DNA from: Flavobacteriales bacterium
Lineage (GTDB): Bacteria > Bacteroidota > Bacteroidia > Flavobacteriales_D > Crocinitomicaceae
DNA: 64,000 nt
NCBI GenBank assembly: GCA_947491305.1
Contig: CANLIL010000007.1
Location: forward strand, 1 to 64,000
Direction of reading: 5' to 3'
The notes beneath the pieces were generated by a model. The model searched no databases. It was not told where the DNA came from and saw nothing but the letters and a program-made list of their open reading frames with translations. The position numbers were made by a program, and so were the translations under genes. Shown one piece after another: positions 27,262 to 32,304 of this stretch (positions are counted from its first letter, which is position 1; each line of letters starts with the position of its first letter).

Positions 27262-27293
27262 TAAAAAAAATCCTGAGTGTTAGCTCAGGATTT
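27262..27293 (-). terminator. Intrinsic terminator downstream of BtuG-like gene
   Basis: AAATCCTGAG-TGTTAG-CTCAGGATTT, A-run on plus strand = U-tract on minus. Confidence 0.87.
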
Positions 27294-27311: not shown

Positions 27312-28586
27312 TTACTCAACAATTAATTTAATGGTTGAACTAGCCGGTGACGCAACAAATTTGATGAAATATGTTCCTTGTTCAAGCGCGCTAACGTCCA
27401 TTGTAGTTTTTAAATTCATGTTTGTTGTTAATACAACTTGTCCTAAGTTATTCAAAACGTGAAGTTCGCCAGTGTAATTTCCTGAAACGGTTGTTTTACC
27501 AGCAGTTGGATTTGGCATTACTTTAAAATCAGTTGTTAAATCAGTAACTCCTAAAGTCGAACGAACATCAAAAACGATTGTTCCTGGCGCAACACCTGCA
27601 TCGAAATTTGTCACTTCATTATTGGATTGATCATACACATAAACTTTTCCATAAGTTGTATAATCGGTGTTACTTGCATACAATAAATTATTCGTTTCGT
27701 CTTCTGCTAATTCATAGTATGACATCGCCAAGTTAGCAACTGGTCCAACATTACTCATTGTCAACACATTCCATTCATTAACGGAAATGTCATAAGCAAT
27801 TTGATAGGAAATATTTCCATCTCTTAAACAAGATGTTCCGCAACCTGTACTTGCCAACGAAAGATTTTCTGTGATTACTGAGTTATTCGATAAATCAATT
27901 CTTGAAATAGATGAACCTGACCAATCTTTGTTATTTACTGCAACAATGTAATTTCCAATTTTAACTAAATTGTCCGGGTTTTTTCCATTTACACCTAAAT
28001 CAACTTCATTACCATAAGTCAAGTTTGTTAAATTCAACGAACCAATCAATCCTTTTTCATTTCCCCATTCAAAACCATTATTCACAGCGATGTATGCTGT
28101 TGAACCATCGATTACAATATTTTGAGTTGCCCATTTTGGACCAGCAACAGAATCAATTGCTGCAATTAAAGATAAATCAGTTGTGTTGTAAATGTGTAAA
28201 TACGAATTAAACGTTGACAAGTATTCCCCTCTTGTCGCCACTAATTTATTTTGATACACGCCTAAATTACGTACACCTGGACAAGCTACATCAGCAACAA
28301 ATTGATTCGTTAATTTACTATATTTTAAAATTTTTGAATCAGCCGCAACATAAAAATAATCTCCTGAAATGACTAAATCAGAAGCAAAACGCATGTTTTC
28401 TAGTGTGTCTAACACTGAATAAACTTGAGTTTGAGGATTGTAAGTTCCTAATGTAACCGGAACAATTTGTGTGTTAGTAACGTAATCAAAATTACCTTCA
28501 TTTAACACGTAAACTTGATGCACATACGATTGTGCTTGCGCCATTGCTGACATCCCTAATACAAGGGAAAAAATTACCTTTTTCAT
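27312..28586 (-). CDS. BtuG-like/DUF5074-type (YncE-like) beta-propeller with T9SS type A C-terminal sorting domain
   Basis: Signal peptide; VYVLNEGNFDY...PVTLGTYNPQT propeller-like repeats; C-term VMPNPTAGKTTVSG...LEQGTYFIKFV; directly downstream of a cobalamin riboswitch and adjacent to a TonB receptor. Confidence 0.75.
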   Translation of the reverse strand: MKKVIFSLVLGMSAMAQAQSYVHQVYVLNEGNFDYVTNTQIVPVTLGTYNPQTQVYSVLDTLENMRFASDLVISGDYFYVAADSKILKYSKLTNQFVADVACPGVRNLGVYQNKLVATRGEYLSTFNSYLHIYNTTDLSLIAAIDSVAGPKWATQNIVIDGSTAYIAVNNGFEWGNEKGLIGSLNLTNLTYGNEVDLGVNGKNPDNLVKIGNYIVAVNNKDWSGSSISRIDLSNNSVITENLSLASTGCGTSCLRDGNISYQIAYDISVNEWNVLTMSNVGPVANLAMSYYELAEDETNNLLYASNTDYTTYGKVYVYDQSNNEVTNFDAGVAPGTIVFDVRSTLGVTDLTTDFKVMPNPTAGKTTVSGNYTGELHVLNNLGQVVLTTNMNLKTTMDVSALEQGTYFIKFVASPASSTIKLIVE

Positions 28587-28631
28587 CTTTTTTGTTTTTT
28601 AAAGATTAATAAACTTAAAAACAAGAAGCAT

Positions 28632-28675
28632 GAAAAAAGAAGGACAAGTCCGTTGGGGAAAACGGCTTGAGTCCG
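28632..28675 (-). terminator. Riboswitch expression-platform terminator
   Basis: Minus strand GGACtcAAGcCGTT-ttcccc-AACGgaCTTGTCC then TTCTTTTTTC, between aptamer and ATG 28586. Confidence 0.7.
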
Positions 28676-28699
28676 ACTTTAATCTGAAGTCTTCTCTCT

Positions 28700-28857
28700 A
28701 GTTTTAGGCAAGTATTCTGACTCATACCAACTCAGCTTTGCCTTCCCGATTGCTCAGTGACATATATTAAGCCAATTTAACGGTATTTACAGCTGCAGTT
28801 ACAGTTTCGGATTTACACCGAATTCCTTTTTAATGCAAAAATTGCTACCTAAAACCA
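28700..28857 (-). promoter_or_regulatory. Cobalamin (B12) riboswitch aptamer
   Basis: Minus strand GGTTTTAGG (P1)...GAATTCGGTGTAAATCCGAAACTGTAACTGCAGCTGTAA...GTCACTGAGCAATCGGGAAGGC...GAGTCAGAATACTTGCCTAAAACT (P1'). Confidence 0.93.
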
Positions 28858-28860
28858 GGG

Positions 28861-28868
28861 CAAAGGTA
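28861..28868 (-). promoter_or_regulatory. -7 element TACCTTTG directly upstream of riboswitch P1
   Basis: Minus-strand TACCTTTG matches TAnnTTTG; predicted TSS falls at about 28857, the start of P1. Confidence 0.55.
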
Positions 28869-28898
28869 AACAAATTAACTAGGAAAGCATCACTTTAA

Positions 28899-31298
28899 TT
28901 AAAATTTCAAGGTGTACTGAAGCATGATGGTACGAGGCGGTTCAATTTTCAAAGGACGCAACGAATAAATTCGGTTGAAAACATTTGAAGAGATAATCGC
29001 TAATTTGTGCTTTTCATTGAATTGATAGGATAAACGTGCATCAAAGATCCAATTTCCAAAGCGATGTGCGTTGTAATAATCCATGTAGCGAATATCTTGC
29101 AGCAATTCATTATCGACGGTGATTTGCTCAAAATCTTCAATAATTTTATCCATGTTGACAATTTTACTGAAATATTTTGCGCTGAAGCCAAGACTAATCT
29201 TCTTGTTGTAAACAAGTTCAACATCTGCTTTAACATTGTGTAAGAAACGGTATTTTAAGATTTTATTGGTTGGATCCAATGAAGTTGTATTATACGTAAA
29301 AACACGATTCAACGAATCAATGGCATACACATAATCTGGCGATAGCGTAGTTGGAACAATGTAATTGTAACCAACAATGAAATTAAGATCTAACTTGGGT
29401 GATAACTTTGCCATACCAGCCATACTTGCATCAATTCCTAAAACCCTTGATTTTCCAGTATTTAAGAATTTAAATCCAGCACTTGAACCCATTGTTTCAA
29501 CAGAAGTAATGGGGTACCAAACTCCAAACATGTATTCAATCGTATTTTGATATTCTTGCCAAAATCCTGCAACATCAATAAAACCAGCTAAACCTCCAAG
29601 TTTAAACCCTTGTTTCAGACCAATTTCAGCATTCCAACTACTTTCGGATTTCAAATCAGGATTAGGGAAAACGCCAAAATTACCCACACCTGTTTTAATG
29701 AATCGTTCGGTAATTGTTGGGAAACGGTAACCTTGTCCAAATGAAGCACGCACATATGTTTCTTTGAAGAATTTCATGCTTGCTCCTGCTCTAAAAATTG
29801 GTTTCAAAGCTTGATTCGTATCGTTCAATTGAAAGTATTCTAAGCGCATTCCAGCAGATAAATTCAAACGTTTACCAACTTTAATTTCGCCTTGCGTGTA
29901 AGCAGATAGGTTGAGCATTTTGTTGTTTGGAGAACCAGATCCAACATAAATCGAAGAAAAAGAATTCACATAATTCCCTGTAATTCCTCCAATGAACTCA
30001 AGTTGTTTCAACTTGTTTATTTTTTTCTGGAACACATAATCCGCATAATAAGAAGTCGCACGGTTGGACTGATTGGCCGTCATTTCATTATCTGTGTGTA
30101 AAATTCGGGTTCTTAAACTATGTTTTCCTTTTTGCGATGAATAATAGTTAATGAATGGGTCTAAATTAAAAATAAACTGATCTTGTAAAAAAACAGCTCC
30201 TGGATACGCTCTAAATAAACCAGTTGTATCGTTTAGCCATGCTAATGCCATTGTAGAATGAGATAACATTGCGTTTCCATTTAATCCATAGGTTAATCCA
30301 TCAATTTTTTTAGAACGGTAACGTAAATTGAAATTTAATCGAATGCGCTGAGCAACCATTTGTCGCTCTTTAAAATTAGAGATTGTATCTGGAAAGATGG
30401 TTGCAACCAATGAATCTGTTTGCGGTGGCCCGATGTAACCGTGATCGTAATTGTAATTTCCTCCGATTACTATATCTAAGTTTTTATGTTGTTTGGAATG
30501 CAAGAAATTGACACCATAAATTCCGGGAAATTCAGTATTCCATTTTGCAATTCCAGGGCTCGAATAAAACCCTGAATAAACGTTTACTTTTGTAACAGGC
30601 TTTGGTCCTGGAAAAGCTGTTCGAATGTGTATTGAACCTGAAAGTGCTGAACTTCCTGATAAAACGGATGCCGCACCTTTAATTACTTCGACTTGATTGA
30701 TATTTTCAACTGGAATAAATCCCCATTCTGGACGACCTGCATCTCCAGATAACATCGGCATATCATCAACAATTACTGCAACTTTTGAACCAACACCAAA
30801 GGTAAAACCACTTCCACCCCTGATTTGTGGTTCTCCATCCAAAATATTCAATCCTGGCGTTTGATCCAATGCAGTTTCGATGCTTCGTGTATTCTTGTTT
30901 TCAATGATCTGTGGTTTAATGACTTGCATCGAAACCGTTTGTTCTTCTAACGGCTTGTCAAATTTCCCAACCTTGACCTCAATAGTTTTCAATTCTAATA
31001 CCAAAGGTTTCAAAGTAAACGTAAAAAACAAGTTGGTATCCTGATTGATTTCAAAATTTACAAATGCACGTTCATACCCAACATTTCTAATTTCGATTTC
31101 ATACACTCCGCGATTCAACAAAAACTGAAATTGTCCTTTGTCATTAGAAACCGTGCTTAAATCACTGTTCTTTAAACGAACGATTGCACCAAAAACAACT
31201 TCATTTTTATCATCAACTATTCTTCCTCTTACACGAGAAGATTGAGCAAAAACAAATGAAACTAAAAAGGTAAGTAATACAGCACTTATAAACTTCAT
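28899..31298 (-). CDS. TonB-dependent receptor, BtuB-like candidate, with N-terminal carboxypeptidase-like domain
   Basis: Signal peptide; GRIVDDKNEVVFGAIVRLKNSDLSTVSNDKGQF; plug domain LDQTPGLNILDGEPQIRGGSGFTFGVGSKVAVIVDDMP; C-terminal TIMLQYTLKF. Confidence 0.88.
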   Translation of the reverse strand: MKFISAVLLTFLVSFVFAQSSRVRGRIVDDKNEVVFGAIVRLKNSDLSTVSNDKGQFQFLLNRGVYEIEIRNVGYERAFVNFEINQDTNLFFTFTLKPLVLELKTIEVKVGKFDKPLEEQTVSMQVIKPQIIENKNTRSIETALDQTPGLNILDGEPQIRGGSGFTFGVGSKVAVIVDDMPMLSGDAGRPEWGFIPVENINQVEVIKGAASVLSGSSALSGSIHIRTAFPGPKPVTKVNVYSGFYSSPGIAKWNTEFPGIYGVNFLHSKQHKNLDIVIGGNYNYDHGYIGPPQTDSLVATIFPDTISNFKERQMVAQRIRLNFNLRYRSKKIDGLTYGLNGNAMLSHSTMALAWLNDTTGLFRAYPGAVFLQDQFIFNLDPFINYYSSQKGKHSLRTRILHTDNEMTANQSNRATSYYADYVFQKKINKLKQLEFIGGITGNYVNSFSSIYVGSGSPNNKMLNLSAYTQGEIKVGKRLNLSAGMRLEYFQLNDTNQALKPIFRAGASMKFFKETYVRASFGQGYRFPTITERFIKTGVGNFGVFPNPDLKSESSWNAEIGLKQGFKLGGLAGFIDVAGFWQEYQNTIEYMFGVWYPITSVETMGSSAGFKFLNTGKSRVLGIDASMAGMAKLSPKLDLNFIVGYNYIVPTTLSPDYVYAIDSLNRVFTYNTTSLDPTNKILKYRFLHNVKADVELVYNKKISLGFSAKYFSKIVNMDKIIEDFEQITVDNELLQDIRYMDYYNAHRFGNWIFDARLSYQFNEKHKLAIISSNVFNRIYSLRPLKIEPPRTIMLQYTLKF

Positions 31299-31305
31299 TA
31301 CTTGT

Positions 31306-32253
31306 TTATTCTTTGATGAATTTAATTACCTGCTGTTGATTACCTGCATACAAATGAATAAAATACATGCCTGCATTCTCTTGAAACAATAGTGAAGTCG
31401 TTTTTTGACCGCTCGCAAGCGTTTTTCCATTGACATCATAAATTTCATACGAGGAAATATCCATTGGCGATTTTATTTGAAGATAGTCACCCGAAATAAA
31501 AACACGCGCCGATTCCAAAGTAAGCTCATCGATTCCAACTGGATTGTAAATTAATTCTACATCGTCAATTAAAACTTCATCATTACCTAAACCTTGACCC
31601 GGTGTTTTATTGGTCGAAAAAGTTAATAGAATATTGGTAATATTAGTTGCTGGTCCAACATAACTAAAAGGAACACTAAAACGCTTCCACAAACCGTTGG
31701 TTGAAGGATAAAATAATTGTGCTTGCGCCATTTGGTGGATTCCTCCTTGGTCATTTGGATCGATAAAATTGTAATTATCATGTAAAATTGCATTCATTAA
31801 GGCTTGATAGTTACCACTTGCTACTACAGGCGTAAATTTAGCCCAAAAAACAATTGAATCTGGATGTTCAATGATTGATTCTGAAAAATTAGGATTGCTT
31901 ACATCTGAATAGGTATGATTTAAGGGACTAATCACTGTTGAACTTGCCATGTTTATGCGACCTAAACTAACTGTTCCGTTAGCAGATGCTCCTAAAATAG
32001 TTTTTGTCCAAATACGCGCACAATATTGTCCAGAAGCACCCGGTCGAACGGCTGTTGAACGTTGCAATTGTTGAGAAGCAAAAGAGGATAAACTTCCTGA
32101 TGCTGATTTAAAACCATTCCAATTGATTGGCTCTTCCGTTGGATTACCTACATTTTCCCATTGTTCAAAATTACTGTTCCCAATTTGGGTTTGACTGAAT
32201 AAATTAAACGCAATAGATATGCTTGTTATGCTAAGTAGTAATTGTTTTTTCAT
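31306..32253 (-). CDS. PCMD-like secreted protein with T9SS type A sorting domain
   Basis: QTQIGNSNFEQWENVGNPTEEPINWNGFKSASG...DEVLIDDVELIYNP; C-term YEIYDVNGKTLASGQKTTSLLFQENAGMYFIHLYAGNQQQVIKFIKE. Confidence 0.7.
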   Translation of the reverse strand: MKKQLLLSITSISIAFNLFSQTQIGNSNFEQWENVGNPTEEPINWNGFKSASGSLSSFASQQLQRSTAVRPGASGQYCARIWTKTILGASANGTVSLGRINMASSTVISPLNHTYSDVSNPNFSESIIEHPDSIVFWAKFTPVVASGNYQALMNAILHDNYNFIDPNDQGGIHQMAQAQLFYPSTNGLWKRFSVPFSYVGPATNITNILLTFSTNKTPGQGLGNDEVLIDDVELIYNPVGIDELTLESARVFISGDYLQIKSPMDISSYEIYDVNGKTLASGQKTTSLLFQENAGMYFIHLYAGNQQQVIKFIKE

Positions 32254-32274
32254 TAATTTATAGTTTTAGTAGAA

Positions 32275-32304
32275 CAAAGATAAAAAACGAAATGAGCTTT
32301 CAAA
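32275..32304 (-). promoter_or_regulatory. Promoter of PCMD-like/TonB receptor unit (TTTG-N18-TATCTTTG)
   Basis: Minus strand TTTG (32301-32304) and TATCTTTG (32275-32282), 22 nt before ATG 32253; no riboswitch between. Confidence 0.6.

Follow-up and report, generated by a model that had tools for sequence, protein, structure and literature searches.

A solitary BtuG-like beta-propeller with a T9SS sorting domain, behind a cobalamin riboswitch, as a putative corrinoid catcher in place of the BtuB/BtuG operon in Crocinitomicaceae

Do a PCMD-like protein, a TonB-dependent receptor and a beta-propeller encoded in a row in a member of the Crocinitomicaceae make up a single module for the capture of vitamin B12 at the cell surface, or does the propeller, which follows a cobalamin riboswitch, act by itself? 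In gut Bacteroides, BtuG is a lipoprotein that forms a lid on BtuB and binds B12 tightly. The initial annotation of the present locus proposed a similar arrangement in which type IX secretion system (T9SS) tails had taken over from lipid anchors. The locus lies in a window of 64,000 nt, by which we mean the whole stretch of DNA that was analysed (GenBank assembly GCA_947491305.1, contig CANLIL010000007.1, positions 1 to 64,000), from a genome of 2.53 Mb in 88 contigs that is 99.99% complete. The three consecutive minus-strand ORFs are indeed present. They encode a PCMD-like protein of 315 aa with a T9SS type A tail (31306-32253), a TonB-dependent receptor of 799 aa (28899-31298) and a BtuG-like beta-propeller of 424 aa with a signal peptide and a T9SS type A tail (27312-28586). 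On that strand the cobalamin riboswitch sits between the receptor gene and the propeller gene, and an SNF2 helicase gene follows the propeller.

The propeller is a distant relative of BtuG, and family profiles were required to detect this kinship. Its single sequence gave no Pfam match to DUF5074, Pfam detecting the tail alone, and a PDB search with the same sequence returned T9SS tails and a weak trace of BtuG at an E-value of 0.8. When the family profile was compared with the PDB, BtuG chains were the only propellers found (E about 1e-6, via the last blade), the other matches being T9SS tails and one borderline carbonic anhydrase. By hhalign (probabilities of 98.8–98.9%), the propeller family matched a profile containing BtuG1-3 (E 1.3e-16) and, over residues 22-339, the lipoprotein DUF5074 family of the sister operons described below (98.9%, E 3.9e-17), a family which itself matches BtuG1-3 at 1e-72 to 1e-89. 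An AlphaFold2 model built from 43 sequences (pLDDT 88.1, pTM 0.75) gave the same answer, all of Foldseek ranks 1-13 being BtuG (E 1.1e-15 to 6.4e-13; TM 0.73–0.81 by target length, and 0.80 for the match of best E-value), with the next non-BtuG propeller at 6e-11 or worse. The BtuG-like identity suggested at the outset is thus borne out both by profile–profile comparison and by structure, and fold and family are well supported; B12 binding is a prediction. At the sequence level, identity with BtuG is low, at about 18%. Among the pocket aromatics of BtuG2 named by PMC10404256, Tyr316 aligns with a conserved tyrosine of the propeller, Y291, Trp194 aligns only with a loop containing W174, and Trp272 has no counterpart by alignment.

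The riboswitch that had been noted ahead of the propeller was confirmed. The aptamer (RF00174; 28690-28867, minus strand) scored 91.4 bits by cmscan (E 2.4e-21; gathering cut-off 31.5 bits), and it is the sole RNA-family match within the window and the one match to RF00174 in the entire genome. Since it lies 3' of the receptor gene, beginning 31 nt after the stop codon, and 5' of the propeller only, it can act on the propeller gene alone, and the genome's single cobalamin riboswitch has just this one gene under it. A box resembling the Bacteroidota-type -7 promoter element, TACCTTTG, read directly from the sequence at 28861-28868 (minus strand), coincides with the very start of the riboswitch, and the window, like 7 of the 14 further loci that were scanned, has a TANNTTTG box 278-285 nt 5' of the propeller ATG. 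The probable expression platform is a GC-rich hairpin followed by the T-run TTCTTTTTT (28633-28674, minus strand), picked out by sequence, by fold and by a terminator scan (stem 28665-28650); the scan gave no excess over shuffled sequence, so that the call rests on position and on a similar T-run in relatives. Because hairpin and T-run fall between the aptamer and the ATG, the riboswitch likely acts by transcription termination. A terminator-like hairpin 3' of the propeller gene (27268-27293, minus strand; 10-bp stem and T-run) suggests, in turn, a one-gene transcript.

Both accessory proteins carry T9SS type A tails, as had been annotated. That of the propeller (residues 356-423; 27318-27521, minus strand) scored 37.7 bits against TIGR04183 (cut-off 23) and 36.4 bits against PF18962, also over the cut-off, while the PCMD-like protein reached 34.6 bits against TIGR04183, likewise over the cut-off. 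The propeller combines a signal peptide, recognized in the N-terminus as read from the sequence, with the sorting domain, and SprA, the T9SS translocon, is encoded in the same genome (2416 bits); these are the attributes of T9SS type A cargo. The tail is present in 40 of 43 propeller orthologues, and a lipobox was found in none of the 72 complete ones.

The claim that the three genes form one module did not survive a survey of 80 public Crocinitomicaceae loci encoding the propeller, 77 of which offered enough upstream sequence. One half of the proposed association was kept without exception, a riboswitch lying directly 5' of the propeller in 77/77 testable loci (66 called by a B12-box pattern and 11 more, missed by that strict pattern, recovered by cmscan: 10 plus L199). 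The other half was not, for the TonB receptor adjoins the propeller in 10/80 loci and was not seen at 70/80, about 10 of these being contigs that start at the propeller and so show no neighbour on that side. The genes 3' of the propeller differ widely among loci. At all ten outside loci examined, which belong to the same taxonomic family and order, the PCMD-like/TonB pair occurred without riboswitch or propeller, and in two propeller genomes (G063 and G017) it adjoins queE, as it does in the window, with the propeller elsewhere. Only in two genera, one of them the window's, does the receptor adjoin the riboswitch. As each of the two, PCMD–TonB and riboswitch–propeller, occurs alone, we take them to be two conserved units that are neighbours by chance in the genus, with the PCMD-like protein as partner of the 799-aa receptor and that receptor probably outside the propeller unit. 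The pair (28899-32253; L243-L252) is conserved across Flavobacteriales, and PCMD-like orthologues often bear additional Ig, cadherin or PKD repeats. The window's PCMD-like protein gave no match to PCMD (PF13201), although three out of 13 orthologues did, the strongest at E 4.9e-6, and its structure model (pLDDT 50) was too poor for a structural search.

At the corresponding place behind this riboswitch, sister genomes within the window's genus encode a DUF4465 protein with a T9SS tail, a TonB receptor of 656 aa, a DUF5074 lipoprotein whose start resembles a lipobox (LISC, IVSC), a T9SS protein of 328 aa and a methyltransferase. The receptor family of these operons matches Bacteroides BtuB1 at an E-value of 4.6e-145, which identifies them as true BtuB/BtuG operons. 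In propeller genomes the propeller alone occupies the place of this canonical operon, often with the methyltransferase still after it. Profile searches over 240 genomes of the family found the propeller in 84, BtuB in 135 and both in none (Fisher p about 4e-45, ignoring shared ancestry), figures that count genomes and not independent events, a single switch within the window's genus being all that the tree, of limited resolution, requires; the exclusion holds also within both mixed genera (15 propeller genomes vs 7 with BtuB in one, 69 vs 8 in the other). Seven BtuB-profile hits in propeller genomes (141–152 bits, E about 1e-41 to 1e-45) were the weakest of all, and they were not counted as canonical BtuB because they overlap the matches of a 616-aa receptor in the same genomes. 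The window's genome encodes a MetH reactivation domain (B12-dependent methionine synthase) together with three B12-binding domains and methylmalonyl-CoA-mutase-type enzymes; having kept such B12-dependent enzymes, it should need B12.

Several other genes recur in these operons. The methyltransferase, of the TPMT-type SAM-dependent kind, ends both BtuB-type and propeller-type operons in the genus (L085:15242-15823, L064:10697-11284, L066:5780-6400) but does not follow the propeller in the small clade to which the window belongs (G000, the window's genome, with G016 and G025). In several propeller operons the gene after the methyltransferase encodes a protein of 888 aa that shows no clear Pfam domain (L066:6422-9088). 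A family of T9SS-tailed proteins of about 320 aa with a GSTAIHKDSS-like motif (L085:14214-15200, L096:10847-11809, L100:6959-7921) occurs in most canonical Flavobacteriales B12 operons read; two members scanned showed no Pfam domain beyond the tail.

These comparisons bear on the proposal that T9SS anchoring had replaced lipid anchoring in this lineage, which stands in one respect and falls in another. The window's lineage has lost the canonical operon, and a solitary T9SS propeller is found in its place. A simple exchange of lipid anchor for T9SS tail is not supported, however, since both modes of export coexist within operons: the sister operons encode lipoprotein BtuG next to proteins with T9SS tails, DUF4465 among them, and three genomes from outside the family combine a T9SS propeller, BtuB and lipoprotein BtuG in a single operon. 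In these full operons the T9SS propeller takes the first slot, elsewhere that of DUF4465, and this suggests that it began as an accessory catcher comparable to DUF4465 and was later the sole survivor, and is not a re-anchored BtuG.

Which receptor, if any, the propeller serves divides the possible readings. Were the PCMD-like protein, the 799-aa receptor and the propeller to form one B12 capture complex, with T9SS tails for lipid anchors, the receptor would be the lineage's BtuB. It is a TonB receptor, as annotated, with plug, barrel and CarboxypepD_reg domains; it matches TIGR01779 (TonB-B12; E 3.9e-16), and its PDB matches include E. coli BtuB plugs, with no Bacteroides BtuB among them. The three genes stand in a row with little space between receptor and riboswitch, and the order PCMD–TonB–riboswitch–propeller recurs in several species of the genus. 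Yet the match to TIGR01779 is far under the equivalog cut-off, and families of heme/hemoglobin receptors give better scores with this protein; the pair lies equally beside the riboswitch in genomes with true BtuB, and away from any riboswitch at the outside loci, those of G017 and G063 among them. Moreover, an orthologue of this receptor is missing from G046, a 100% complete genome with both riboswitch and propeller, and the riboswitch has a promoter-like box of its own. A joint complex therefore appears very unlikely to us, and the adjacent receptor was dropped as BtuB partner on the synteny survey. A second receptor, of 616 aa, is encoded elsewhere in the window's genome (contig C32:24603-26450; L211:1480-3330), beside a ribBA-like gene and an ABC ATPase gene, and is the most BtuB-like receptor found there. 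That the propeller hands B12 to this unlinked, divergent BtuB, a special case of the reading we prefer, is consistent with TIGR01779 being its best NCBIfam match (E 2.7e-44 over the full length), with E. coli BtuB as its best PDB match and with its rank as the genome's best match to the BtuB profile (E 1.1e-29). Its 152 bits against TIGR01779 are nevertheless to be set against an equivalog cut-off of 600 bits, its locus has no riboswitch in a genome with only one, and its distribution is patchy (34 of 84 propeller genomes, and also 9 BtuB genomes), which weakens its candidacy as a dedicated partner; we view the pairing as doubtful. A receptor linked to the propeller in all propeller genomes was not found.

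The propeller might also be controlled by B12 without binding it, serving as an adhesin, as a binder of another ligand or as a tether near B12 producers. Low identity to BtuG and the incomplete match of the pocket aromatics would fit such a role, and BtuK2 of B. thetaiotaomicron provides a precedent, showing that membership of a B12 operon does not by itself imply B12 binding (PMC12751083). Against this, BtuG is the closest fold by a clear margin, no other propeller family came up in the profile search, and related propellers elsewhere fill the operon slot of DUF4465, a family with demonstrated B12 binding; we regard a non-binding role as unlikely.

Our working hypothesis, to which we assign a probability of about 0.63, is that the propeller is a solitary, B12-repressed, T9SS-exported corrinoid catcher of the BtuG type that has taken over from the canonical operon and supplies a receptor at another locus. 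The unit would be a one-gene transcript with promoter, cobalamin riboswitch, intrinsic terminator and a single secreted protein. At low intracellular B12 the terminator would not form and the propeller would be made; the signal peptide would direct it across the inner membrane and the T9SS across the outer membrane, where the C-terminal tail would be cut off and the propeller would stay on the cell surface. There, one face of the BtuG-type propeller may bind the corrinoid, which would then be handed to a TonB receptor encoded elsewhere. More tentatively, this B12-requiring Crocinitomicaceae lineage might have given up both BtuB and lipoprotein BtuG and import the vitamin through the solitary propeller and one or more TonB receptors that are not BtuB. 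If true, this would be a route of B12 uptake in which catcher and receptor have separate loci and the T9SS serves to fix the catcher to the surface. What is new is a BtuG-type propeller with T9SS export signals that stands alone behind a cobalamin riboswitch and, among 240 genomes, never together with canonical BtuB. Either another outer-membrane receptor is used or catcher and receptor have become uncoupled. The pattern predicts a function for a family of T9SS cargo annotated by its tails alone, and the DUF4465 proteins, the 320-aa family and the propellers point to repeated use of the T9SS for vitamin acquisition in Flavobacteriales.

Among the closest known systems is that of the BtuG proteins, lipoprotein propellers found on the surface of gut Bacteroides (BT1954, BT2095; PDB 8okv, 8bmx, 3dsm; PMC6143338, PMC10404256). 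The propeller shares with them the beta-propeller fold, an N-terminal NEGxF motif, a conserved last blade, control by a cobalamin riboswitch and predicted export to the outside. A lipobox with a signal for lipoprotein export marks BtuG (PMC6143338); the propeller has neither and bears a T9SS type A tail, and btuB is missing next to it and, as judged by profile search, from its genome as well. In other Flavobacteriales families (L096, L079, L080) the first slot of the operon is taken by T9SS propellers whose homology runs the full length, tail included (hhalign E 3.4e-40), and which also lie directly behind a cobalamin riboswitch; these belong to complete operons with BtuB and lipoprotein BtuG, whereas the window's propeller is alone. 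The T9SS-tailed DUF4465 proteins resemble the propeller in being, in the sister genomes, the first gene behind the riboswitch, in their tail and in an expected accessory role in B12 binding, and one of them, F2I9N3 of Fluviicola taffensis (BtuJ family), binds B12 in vitro and retained B12 during purification (PMC13398666). Unlike the propeller, DUF4465 is a jelly-roll of an unrelated family, and in the loci read it is accompanied by BtuB and lipoprotein BtuG.
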